The notes under the pieces are model-generated. The model saw only the letters and a list, made by a program, of their open reading frames with translations. It did not search any database and was not told the origin of the DNA. DNA of 42,837 bases from Acidobacteriota bacterium (lineage in GTDB: Bacteria; Acidobacteriota; Terriglobia; Bryobacterales; Bryobacteraceae), in NCBI GenBank assembly GCA_021778335.1, contig JAJYCN010000006.1, forward strand, positions 1-42,837, written 5' to 3'. Shown one piece after another: positions 31,330 to 34,466 of the stretch (its first letter is position 1; each line of letters opens with the position of its first letter). A program made the translations under genes and the position numbers.

Positions 31330-32256
31330 TCAGTTCGCGCCGCCTTCTCCCAGCGTGGCCAGGAACTGGGCCGGCAACGGCCATTCGCCGGTCACCCGGT
31401 TGCGCTCGCAATGGAATGTTCCCGAGGCGAGCAATCCGCCCACGCTCGGCGTATTCGCGGCTGCGCCATTCTGCTGCGCCAACTCGGTCCGAAGTGTGGC
31501 CGTGCTGGTTTCGAGTTGAGCTTCGAGTTGCGTCGCGGCCGGCGGATCCTGACAGTCGAGTTGTGCCTCCAGGACAAGTCCGGCTCCGCGCGCCGAAAGC
31601 GTAAACACAATGGGCCGCGTTCCGGCCACGGAAGCCAGCAGCGGCCTGGCCGGTTCCGGCAACAACCCCGATGCCGTAATCGCCTGCGCGCTCGTCTTTA
31701 CCCAAACCGCGCCGGTAGGAGTATCACCGGGCCGTGCGTCGCGCGCGTGGATCTGCCGCACCGCTTCGCCCTCCGTGCTCACAGCCAGGTCGAGCACGTC
31801 ATCCTGATCGAGATAGAACGAGATCCTCCGCTCCGGACGGCTCCCGCTCATCCGGCAGACGCCCCCCTGGCAGTTTCCTCCCTGCTGTTCCGCATACGCC
31901 TCGAGCGATTTCCAGTCGAAGCGTCCACGCAGCACAAAGAACTCCTCCCCGCCGGCGAACAGTATCGCGGCGGCGTCCAGATCGCGCTGGTAGTCGAACC
32001 GTGTCCGCGCGACAAACTGGCGGTAGTCGGCGTCCTGTTCCGACTCCGAACCGTTGAGAAGGCCAAGCAGTCCCGCGCGCCTCGCGGAGGCGAAATCCAG
32101 ATAAACGATGGTGCCCGCCCGTCCGGGCAGCATCGCCACCAGCTCCGCGGACGACATCGCTTTGCCGCGCCGCATCCAATACACGCCGCCCAGAATCGCC
32201 CCGCACAGGACGAGCAGCGCGGTTGCAAGCTGGAACGGGTGCAGATGGAAGCGCAC
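31330..32256 (-). CDS. Membrane-anchored hypothetical protein
   Basis: I do not recognise the family of this 308-residue product. One N-terminal membrane helix (FQLATALLVLCGAILGGVYW, about residues 8-27) is followed by a soluble, probably periplasmic part. That part has a repeated pattern of extended strands (GTIVYLDFASARRAGLLGLL, AAAILFAGGEEFFVLRGRFDWKSL, RPIVFTLSARGAGLVLEAQLDC) and two cysteines close together (C128, C133). It is reminiscent of bacterial proteins with DUF3352-like beta-rich repeats, but I cannot assign it. GTG 32256 is used, 12 nt behind aroF. Co-transcription with aroF and a PfkB kinase is likely. Confidence 0.65.
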   Translation of the reverse strand: MRFHLHPFQLATALLVLCGAILGGVYWMRRGKAMSSAELVAMLPGRAGTIVYLDFASARRAGLLGLLNGSESEQDADYRQFVARTRFDYQRDLDAAAILFAGGEEFFVLRGRFDWKSLEAYAEQQGGNCQGGVCRMSGSRPERRISFYLDQDDVLDLAVSTEGEAVRQIHARDARPGDTPTGAVWVKTSAQAITASGLLPEPARPLLASVAGTRPIVFTLSARGAGLVLEAQLDCQDPPAATQLEAQLETSTATLRTELAQQNGAAANTPSVGGLLASGTFHCERNRVTGEWPLPAQFLATLGEGGAN

Positions 32257-32268
32257 AAGCGAAGCCGC

Positions 32269-33309
32269 TTAAACCGCTACCGCCGCTACCGCCTCGCGGG
32301 AGGACTTCCACAGCTTCACGTAAGGCTCCAGGTCCCGCATCATCTTCGCGAACTGAGGCAAGTCCAGCGACTGCGCCCCGTCGCTCACCGCTTTGTCCGG
32401 ATGCGGATGCACCTCGACAATCAGTCCATCGGCGCCGATCGCCACACCCGCGCGCGACAGGGCCGGCACCAGACTCCGTTTCCCCGTCGCGTGACTCGGA
32501 TCGAGGATCACCGGCAGATGCGTCAGTTCGTTCAAAAGCGCAACGGCGGTGATGTCGCAGGTGTTTCGCGTCGCCGTCTCAAACGTGCGGATGCCGCGCT
32601 CGCACAAAATGACGTCCGAATTGCCGTGCGCCACCACATACTCGGCCGACATCAGAAGTTCCTTGATCGTCGAGCTCATGCCGCGCTTCAAAAGCACGGG
32701 ACGGCCGCAGCGGCCCAGCGTCTTCAGCAGCGAGAAGTTCTGCATGTTCCGCGCGCCGATCTGCAGAATGTCGGCGTAGGATGCGACTAGCTCCACATCA
32801 CGGTCGCTCATCACTTCGGTGATGATGCCGAGCCCGGTGGCCTGCTTCGCCTTGTGCAAGAGCTTCAGGCCTTCTTCTTCGAGCCCCTGAAAATCGTAAG
32901 GCGACGTCCGCGGCTTGAACGCGCCGCCGCGCAGGAACTTCGCCCCACACGCGGCCACGCCCTCGGCCGCCTCGAGGATCTGTTTCTCATTCTCCACCGA
33001 GCACGGGCCGGCCATGACGATGAACTCATCGCCGCCGATCTCGACGCCATTGGCGACCACCTGGGTTTTCGCCGGCCTGAATTCGCGGCTCACGAACTTA
33101 TAAGGCGCTGAAATGCGCACCGCACGCTCCACCTGAGGCATCGCTTCCACCGACTCCAGGCAGGCGGTCACATCTCCCATGCCCACCACGCCGATCACTA
33201 CCCGCTCCTCGCCTTCAATCGAGTGGACCTTGTAGCCGAAGTCGCGAATCCGCTCGCAAACCTGGTCAATCTCTTCCTTCGTTGAATGCCGCTTCATGGA
33301 AATAATCAT
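32269..33309 (-). CDS. aroF: 3-deoxy-7-phosphoheptulonate synthase (DAHP synthase, type I-beta with N-terminal regulatory domain)
   Basis: The 346-residue enzyme condenses PEP and erythrose-4-phosphate, the first step of the shikimate pathway. A ferredoxin-like regulatory domain (about 1-70) precedes the TIM barrel. Visible motifs are [40 protein letters not shown] (PEP/E4P-binding), [48 protein letters not shown], the [17 protein letters not shown] segment and [15 protein letters not shown] (metal and phosphate ligands). Its N-terminal domain allows feedback by Phe/Tyr in related enzymes. A complete attenuator with an aromatic leader peptide lies directly upstream (33325-33489). Three genes follow it in the same direction with gaps of 12, 4 and 28 nt. 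Confidence 0.95.
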
Positions 33310-33324: not shown

Positions 33325-33353
33325 AAAATAAAAAACCCACTCTTTCGAGTGGG
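33325..33353 (-). terminator. Attenuator terminator hairpin upstream of aroF
   Basis: On the minus strand CCCACTC (33353-33347) and GAGTGGG (33342-33336) form a perfect 7-bp stem closed by a GAAA tetraloop, followed by TTTTTTATTTT (33335-33325). This is a canonical intrinsic terminator. It lies 15 nt before the aroF start, inside the leader rather than behind a gene, so it must act as an attenuator. Its 5' arm is complementary to the alternative antiterminator arm at 33390-33384. Confidence 0.9.
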
Positions 33354-33383
33354 CCGTTACTTACTTTCCTCAAACTTGCAGCG

Positions 33384-33398
33384 CCACTCGTGACGAGT
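33384..33398 (-). promoter_or_regulatory. Antiterminator/pause arms of the aroF attenuator
   Basis: Region 1 (ACTCG, 33398-33394) pairs with CGAGT (33390-33386) as a 5-bp hairpin with a TCA loop. Region 2 (CGAGTGG, 33390-33384) is also perfectly complementary over 7 bp to CCACTCG (33352-33346), which is the 5' arm of the terminator. Region 1 begins at the last base of the leader-peptide stop codon, the standard geometry for ribosome-controlled switching. Confidence 0.8.
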
Positions 33399-33451
33399 CA
33401 GGTCCCGTACCAGAACCAAAATCGAAACGAGTTGAACGACACGATCCGCAT
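33398..33451 (-). CDS. Aromatic leader peptide of the aroF attenuator
   Basis: A 17-codon reading frame (ATG 33451, TGA ending 33398) encodes MRIVSFNSFRFWFWYGT. Seven of 17 residues are aromatic (Phe at 6, 9, 11 and 13; Trp at 12 and 14; Tyr at 15), six of them packed in positions 9-15 just before the stop. That composition is what attenuation needs: shortage of charged tRNA-Phe, -Trp or -Tyr would stall the ribosome over region 1 and let region 2 sequester the terminator's 5' arm. The ATG is 8 nt after the -10 box, so the leader mRNA is essentially leaderless. It is too short for routine gene calling. Confidence 0.88.
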   Translation of the reverse strand: MRIVSFNSFRFWFWYGT

Positions 33452-33459
33452 CAAATCGA

Positions 33460-33489
33460 AGTATAGGCTGATTCCCTGAGCGATTGCAA
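33460..33489 (-). promoter_or_regulatory. aroF promoter
   Basis: On the minus strand TTGCAA (33489-33484) and TATACT (33465-33460) are separated by 18 nt, a good sigma-70-type promoter in the gap behind the phenylalanine hydroxylase gene. Predicted initiation is near 33453, at the leader-peptide ATG. The -35 hexamer is identical to that of the CHAT-operon promoter at 40601-40628. Confidence 0.75.
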
Positions 33490-33515: not shown

Positions 33516-34433
33516 TTATAACGTCTTCGCGAGAAAGCTCTCCAGGTCGTGCTCGTTCACCGCGGGTTCTCCCGGCGCCACATTGCTCAGCTTACCCGCC
33601 TTCATCCAACGCTCTAACTCGCCCACCAGGTCAAAGAGGTGGTCGAAAGAATCGACAACAAAAAGCAAGGGCTGAAAGTGATCGATCTCGAACGCCTGGT
33701 TGATGGCCCACTCAAGTTGAATCGGATACCGCCGCACCTGGGGTGCGTCGATGGCGTGAGCGATCTCGCCATACGAACTCAGCAGTCCGCTGCCGTAGAC
33801 CTTCAATCCATCGCCGGATCGCATCAGGCCGAACTCGACGGTGAACCAGAAAAAGCGCGCCATCGCCCGGATTATGCTCGTCAGCGTGTGTATCTTTGTG
33901 TCGTGGCCCCGAATGCCCGCCACAAGGTCCGCCGCCGTGTGCGCGCATTCGCCGAATCGCACCAGCGTCTCGGCGAAGTTGCGGTCCGTGTGCATCGGCA
34001 CGTGCCCGGCGATGTCGTGAAAGATGTCGGGCTCGGGCAGATAGTCGAGACGGTCCGCGCGGCGAATCGTAATCGTTGTGGGAAACTCGCGATTGCGTAA
34101 ACAGTCGAAGAACAAGAACGCCGGTACGTACCCGCTTACCGCTTTGGCGCGGAAACCTGTCAAGGGGTTCAGGAAACGATTGACGTCGTCGAGCCTCGGC
34201 ACGCGATACGGGTCGAGACATAGAGACCCGATCCCGCGCAAAAACTGCGGATTTGCGTACCGCTCCCAGCGCGGAACCATCCGTCCATACAGGTTCCGCC
34301 ACGCCTCGTGATTGGCCTCCGAGTACAGATCGTAGGGCTGATGAATGTAGAGCTCCCCGTGCCCGCGCGCCTCCTCGATAAATGGCGCCTCCGATGTGGT
34401 GAGCCCGGCGGAAACCGATTCGGTACGCGTCAC
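33516..34433 (-). CDS. phhA: Phenylalanine 4-monooxygenase
   Basis: This 305-residue (from GTG 34433) iron- and tetrahydropterin-dependent hydroxylase converts phenylalanine to tyrosine. The facial triad is visible, numbering from ATG 34439: H141 and H146 in PDIFHDIAGHVPMH and E202 in FFWFTVEFGLM. The pterin/substrate-binding GLKVYGSGLLSSYGEI and the C-terminal FVVDSFDHLFDLV are also present. GTG 34433 is preferred because an AGAGGAGG site directly abuts ATG 34439 with no spacer, but lies 6 nt before this GTG. It is longer than monomeric enzymes of the Pseudomonas type (about 262). The gene sits just upstream of the aroF attenuator, and an inverted repeat lies 27 nt upstream of the ATG at 34439. 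Confidence 0.93.
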   Translation of the reverse strand: MTRTESVSAGLTTSEAPFIEEARGHGELYIHQPYDLYSEANHEAWRNLYGRMVPRWERYANPQFLRGIGSLCLDPYRVPRLDDVNRFLNPLTGFRAKAVSGYVPAFLFFDCLRNREFPTTITIRRADRLDYLPEPDIFHDIAGHVPMHTDRNFAETLVRFGECAHTAADLVAGIRGHDTKIHTLTSIIRAMARFFWFTVEFGLMRSGDGLKVYGSGLLSSYGEIAHAIDAPQVRRYPIQLEWAINQAFEIDHFQPLLFVVDSFDHLFDLVGELERWMKAGKLSNVAPGEPAVNEHDLESFLAKTL

Positions 34434-34466
34434 GCGCATCCTCCTCTACCAAAACAATACTATCAA

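Follow-up and report, generated by a model that had tools for sequence, protein, structure and literature searches.

A candidate ribosome-mediated attenuator with a Phe/Trp/Tyr leader peptide upstream of aroF in Bryobacterales

The trpL and pheL leaders of Proteobacteria follow a four-arm logic, in which competing hairpins are chosen by a stalled or a terminating ribosome; the locus described here shares this logic, but the proteobacterial leaders each read a single amino acid and control genes of a branch (trp, pheA). An earlier note on this locus had taken aromatic leaders to be known from these proteobacterial genes only, and overlooked aroF attenuators in C. glutamicum and Acholeplasma. 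Ribosome-mediated attenuation of the C. glutamicum aroF operon has been attributed to the aroR leader (Neshat et al. 2014; PMC11802643, PMC4046766). Like our leader, aroR is a short ORF that carries aromatic codons (Phe-Tyr-Phe) and precedes a DAHP synthase gene, but it belongs to another phylum, no Trp is among its reported residues, and it reportedly responds to Phe only (PMC11802643). Compared with aroR, which we liken to it by its published description, the leader in our locus has a longer run that mixes Phe, Trp and Tyr, and it is conserved across an order. In Acholeplasma, uORFC-13-1 is a Phe-coding uORF followed by a terminator before aroF and a proposed attenuator, much like our locus; unlike it, uORFC-13-1 is described with a ribosome binding site and has a Phe-coding U run, no Trp or Tyr is reported in it, and it lies in another phylum (PMC8632094). 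No Rfam match for uORFC-13-1 was found in the window (the whole stretch of 42,837 nucleotides that was analysed). Attenuation of E. coli aroF was an early hypothesis, as cited in PMC8632094 and PMC2659441.

Leader peptides whose mRNA begins at the leader AUG are likewise known to act by attenuation, in S. meliloti (peTrpL, PMC7298713) and in S. lividans (trpL1, ilvL and leuL, PMC8079986), and IlvL combines several end products (Val, Ile and Leu; PMC8079986). They concern other genes and phyla, and none of them mixes three aromatic amino acids. T-boxes are found upstream of aroF in four Bacillota loci, whose leaders match RF00230. Like the system proposed here, these T-boxes let the aminoacylation state of tRNA control transcription of DAHP synthase, but they do so by direct tRNA binding without translation, and the window gives no match to RF00230.

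The mechanism proposed below is the classic one, and both aroF attenuators (C. glutamicum; proposed in Acholeplasma) and leaderless leader peptides were already known, which narrows the novelty first claimed for this leader. Our literature search, which covered few subscription papers, found no description of an aromatic attenuator in Acidobacteriota and none of a leader that combines all three aromatic amino acids. In 2010, predicted Acidobacteriota attenuators were said to have almost no assigned functions (PMC2965389).

Layout of the aroF locus

The predicted elements of the window, all on the minus strand, are as follows.

33484–33489, minus strand: −35 element TTGCAA (TTGCAA/CTTGCA is the commonest −35 among homologues)
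33460–33465, minus strand: −10 element TATACT, ending 8 nt 5' of the leader ATG (commonest −10 among homologues)
33398–33451, minus strand: leader ORF MRIVSFNSFRFWFWYGT with its stop, 17 codons, four Phe, two Trp and one Tyr
33428–33435, minus strand: arm 1 UCAACUCG, within the leader and directly 5' of the aromatic run, partner of arm 2
33422–33424, minus strand: 5' half of the inner hairpin, the Arg codon CGA of the FRFW core, pairing with UCG at 33396–33394
33379–33390, minus strand: arm 2, 5' strand of the antiterminator, CGAGTGG-(C)-GCTG, with the bulged C at 33383
33346–33356, minus strand: arm 3 CGGCCCACTCG, partner of arm 2 (antiterminator) or arm 4 (terminator)
33334–33355, minus strand: intrinsic terminator hairpin GGCCCACTC-GAAA-GAGTGGGTT, arms 3 and 4
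33325–33335, minus strand: terminator U run TTTTTTATTTT, the expected 3' end of the attenuated RNA
32269–33309, minus strand: aroF, DAHP synthase type I-beta with an N-terminal ferredoxin-like domain (NF006421, PF00793, PF18152)
31330–32256, minus strand: 308-aa protein with an N-terminal hydrophobic segment

Most of what the earlier note had read from the letters holds. The promoter is present at 33489–33460 with 18 nt between its boxes, and the leader (ATG at 33451, stop TGA at 33400–33398) does have seven aromatic residues among its 17. Arm 2 follows the stop after 7 nt, and its CGAGTGG (33390–33384) is perfectly complementary to CCACTCG in the 5' arm of the terminator. The GAAA-loop terminator and its U run occupy 33355–33325, and the aroF ATG lies downstream of the T run, at 33309.

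Three genes follow aroF on the same strand, coding for the 308-aa protein, a PfkB-type sugar kinase and a cyanophycinase-like S51 peptidase. The earlier suggestion that the attenuator governs all three agrees with the gaps among the four genes, none of which exceeds 12 nt; of the three, the 308-aa gene alone lies beside aroF in most relatives (125 of 158 loci). This gene is probably cotranscribed with aroF; its product has no match in Pfam or NCBIfam. Directly upstream of the attenuator lies a phenylalanine 4-monooxygenase gene (33516–34439, minus strand), an adjacency seen only in the window's genus (2 of the 144 loci with enough upstream sequence).

Conservation of the leader and its RNA arms

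We looked for aroF in 200 genomes from the order, of which 195 gave a match, and also in a named collection of genomes, and compared the regions upstream of the orthologues. Automatic criteria (a −10 box 6–12 nt before an ATG or GTG, and an ORF of 10–40 codons with at least four aromatic residues) gave 119 leaders. An independent scan found a terminator in 111 of these, and in most of the remaining eight the terminator is imperfect. When hand-rescued cases are counted, the device is present at 124 of 152 usable Bryobacterales aroF loci, a count whose members are not independent, since the homologues are related by descent. Aromatic-rich leaders do occur where the earlier note had proposed to look for them, and homologues that keep the stems without the aromatic codons, which it had named as refuting, were not seen among the loci compared. 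Comparison of more than 100 genomes supports its central claim, namely that a DAHP synthase gene stands behind a complete transcription attenuator whose leader mixes Phe, Trp and Tyr. An abundant soil phylum gains with it an amino acid attenuator that is well defined, open to testing and kept across most of an order.

A covariance model of the device, built from 64 leaders, has one convincing match in the window's genome (86.6 bits; the next scores 20.2). It also detects the device in family f3 of the order, as well as in genomes that the protein screen could not pick up because their aroF has diverged too far. Across 297 genomes of the phylum, all strong matches fall within the window's family. 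Among weak matches in other classes, read singly, several are apparently genuine but different attenuators (trpE, aroF), and others proved on inspection to be plain terminators. The second copy of aroF (contig C241) and trpE(G) of Bryobacteraceae were also searched for a leader, and neither has one that we could find.

In 102 of the 119 homologous loci the gap between the −10 box and the AUG is 8–10 nt, which leaves no space for a ribosome binding site. This spacing suggests that the leader mRNA is very probably leaderless, with a start site at the AUG or about 2 nt from it; in S. lividans the distance from the −10 box to the start site is 4–9 nt, with a mean of 6.3 (PMC8079986). Counted from a leaderless AUG, the transcribed leader is only ~127 nt long.

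The aromatic leader is not a product of chance. Dinucleotide-preserving shuffles of the 119 upstream regions never produced an ORF behind a −10 box with at least six aromatic residues making up at least 30% (0 of 2380), compared to 77 of the 119 real sequences. Phe is present in all 119 leaders, Trp in 108 and Tyr in 111 (missing from 11 and 8, respectively), and 100 leaders contain all three. Within the stall window, defined as the codons at which a ribosome could stall with arm 2 still uncovered, Phe, Trp and Tyr account for 27, 10 and 11%, as opposed to 4.1, 1.3 and 2.3% in neighbouring proteins; all three lie inside it in 72 of 98 leaders.

These figures bear on whether the same attenuator senses mainly phenylalanine, with the Trp and Tyr codons being minor or serving for fine-tuning, a reading that we consider possible but rather unlikely. 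Phe alone occurs in every leader and is the commonest aromatic residue (the average leader, with 19 residues, has 3.3 Phe, 1.2 Trp and 1.7 Tyr), and the Phe-Tyr-Phe leader of C. glutamicum reportedly answers limitation of Phe and not of Tyr (PMC11802643). However, Trp and Tyr reach ~7.7 and ~4.8 times background in the stall window and are kept there in 84–86% of leaders. Retention of a single Trp codon, TGG, across many genera is also unlikely without selection, although RNA pairing could partly hold it. The conservation of codons is consistent with one peptide that would sense all three end products.

The constraint on the leader can be followed at single positions. At the position before the Arg of the core, Phe is found 56 times and Tyr 31 times, and Ser and Cys never (TTT 43, TTC 13, TAT 16, TAC 15, with 7 others coding for Gly, Arg or Pro), with about 11 switches between the Phe and Tyr states on the aroF tree. 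At the Phe position that follows, every codon is TTY or TAY, and T and C both occur as third base. Since a purely structural RNA would not prefer a T-to-A transversion over a T-to-C transition, the Phe/Tyr exchange points to a coding constraint.

The core motif [FY]-R-F-W recurs in most leaders, as might be expected if this were a TnaC-like arrest peptide, in which the nascent R-F-W peptide would bind a free aromatic amino acid and stall the ribosome, without tRNA charging being sensed. Such a peptide is very unlikely here. The core itself varies (F/Y exchange, RFR, SYW, GFW), the rest of the peptide is not conserved, and the identity of the stop codon is free (48 TGA, 47 TAG and 24 TAA in 119 leaders). 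The Arg is conserved because its codon pairs with bases just past the stop: CGA is associated with UCG, and CGG with CCG (Fisher p = 0.0007, without correction for relatedness), so that RNA pairing accounts for it.

Alignment of the homologues shows four arms, arm 1 CGCCAnCTCG in the leader, arm 2 CGAGTGG-C-GTTGG, arm 3 CCAACCCACTCG and arm 4 GAGTGGG. Arms 2 and 3 form an antiterminator helix of 12 bp (11 bp in the window) that contains a single bulged C, and in which 87.6% of cells are paired, compared to 42.4% at most when slid. Seven of its base pairs have changes on both sides, and its 17 double-change cells were matched by only one of 500 shuffles. In the terminator, 98.6% of cells are paired and there are 23 double-change cells, a number that none of 500 shuffles reached. 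The antiterminator and the terminator are mutually exclusive, sharing arm 3, and covariation is seen in both helices; some changes extend over three arms, with CCCGCTC answered by GAGCGG in arms 2 and 4 of one locus (L135), and CCCACCC by GGGTGG in two others (L172 and L218).

The compensatory changes that had been proposed as a check are therefore found in helices 2:3 and 3:4, but not significantly in 1:2, which is conserved (79% of cells paired, 35–58% when slid) with covariation not above that of the shuffles. Arm 1 has also been relocated. The 1:2 hairpin that the earlier note placed at the stop codon, ACTCG-TCA-CGAGT, is in the window sequence, yet homologues do not keep it as arm 1; the conserved partner of arm 2 is the CGCCAnCTCG segment inside the leader.

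The arms (CGAGTGGCGTTGG, CCCACTC/GAGTGGG) are more conserved than a terminator needing pairing only would require, and this, together with the T-boxes that precede aroF in Bacillota, could be taken to favour a riboswitch, T-box or protein-binding attenuator that works without a peptide. We regard such an element as extremely unlikely, as it leaves the aromatic-codon constraint unexplained, and the conservation of each arm can come from its having two or three partners. The ~127-nt leader is too small for a T-box Stem I, and no Rfam family was accepted in the window at gathering or relaxed thresholds; Trp_leader (RF00513) scores 17.0 bits against a cut-off of 41. The TGGC after GAG in arm 2 was considered as a T-box feature and rejected, as there is no space for Stem I and no match.

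Ribosome positions and proposed mechanism

We consider it highly likely that aroF is controlled by a ribosome-mediated transcription attenuator of the classic TrpL/PheL type. The sequences show the elements, how well they are conserved, the compensatory changes in helices 2:3 and 3:4, and the spacing; from these we infer where transcription starts, that the leader is translated, that ribosomes stall and transcripts terminate in the cell, and how the device responds to each amino acid. Transcription would start at the leader AUG or within ~2 nt of it, and the leader would be translated from a leaderless mRNA. When charged tRNA-Phe, tRNA-Trp or tRNA-Tyr is short, the ribosome would stall in the run of aromatic codons, where it would cover arm 1 and open the inner hairpin, while arm 2 stays free. 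Arm 2 would then pair with arm 3 (11–12 bp, one bulged C), and RNA polymerase would read into aroF. With all three tRNAs charged, the ribosome would reach the stop codon and cover arm 2, and arms 3 and 4 would terminate transcription near 33325. An untranslated leader is expected to form the arm 1:arm 2 hairpin and the terminator. As any one uncharged tRNA would stall the ribosome, the leader would work with OR logic, and shortage of any single aromatic amino acid would increase the enzyme that opens the common pathway. One sensor would in this way respond to all three products of a branched pathway, at the first step that they have in common.

The spacing of the elements agrees with this model. 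With an assumed ribosome footprint of 15 nt on either side, the last aromatic codon, whose median distance to arm 2 is 17 nt (quartiles 17 and 20), places arm 2 just beyond the leading edge. A ribosome at 376 of 389 aromatic codons leaves arm 2 clear, while one at the stop codon overlaps it in 61 of 70 loci. When only the RNA outside the ribosome, as far as arm 3, was folded, the antiterminator formed in 91 of 118 loci with the ribosome stalled at the last aromatic codon and in 7 of 118 with the ribosome at the stop; with shuffled spacers it folded in 26%. In the window, the antiterminator reaches −15.5 kcal/mol for stalls at codons 12–15, compared to −14.9 for the terminator, and drops to −5.5 with the ribosome at the stop codon. 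The most stable fold of the full leader of the window without a ribosome consists of the arm 1:arm 2 hairpin and the terminator.

Action in trans has been reported for S. meliloti rnTrpL/peTrpL, and a trans role of the leader RNA or peptide would explain why the arms are conserved beyond the need for pairing. That the leaderless OR sensor for three aromatic amino acids is the only aromatic attenuator of the order, and that its terminated leader RNA or peptide acts in trans, is in our judgement improbable.

Loss of the device and other leaders in Acidobacteriota

The device is absent from 28 of the 152 loci (~18%), and its presence requires about 14 gain or loss changes on the aroF tree, which indicates that it is dispensable. 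Stages of its loss are visible. In L094, L116 and L208 the leader is deleted and the terminator remains immediately behind the promoter, as in a relic attenuator, and L160 has kept the terminator with a decayed leader that contains one Phe; arms 1 and 2 are also lost or decayed in these four loci. In a further group the entire device is missing, and the −10 box lies directly before aroF, whose mRNA looks leaderless itself. Conversely, the three loci of one genus (g8) keep the leader (e.g. MAPRHSYRFWYWYFAPRERVDLSAMKN) on an aroF that has lost the N-terminal ferredoxin-like regulatory domain, with ~266 aa left.

In a sub-group of Bryobacterales, a palindromic box, ACACC-N6-GGTG, lies 66–73 nt upstream of the start codon of the leader (eight loci) or, where there is no leader, about as far from that of aroF (six loci). 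It was not seen in the window. The box looks like the site of a DNA-binding regulator, with a position that would be fixed relative to the promoter.

Different leaders were observed elsewhere in the phylum. In three loci of family f19, a Trp/Phe leader (NWFWWPWHF or NWFWWSWRF) and a terminator precede aroF. In four loci from other Acidobacteriota families, trpE lies behind leaders that mix Trp with Tyr or Phe (VFFVFGYNYAWRWYSS, SYWYWF, NNYFWCWYR and FNRYYWWYR), again with a terminator. At one locus of family f4 (L238, ~1500–1640), a peroxiredoxin-like gene lies behind a terminator and a short ORF in which five Cys codons stand in a row (SFRCCCCCN), a possible Cys leader.
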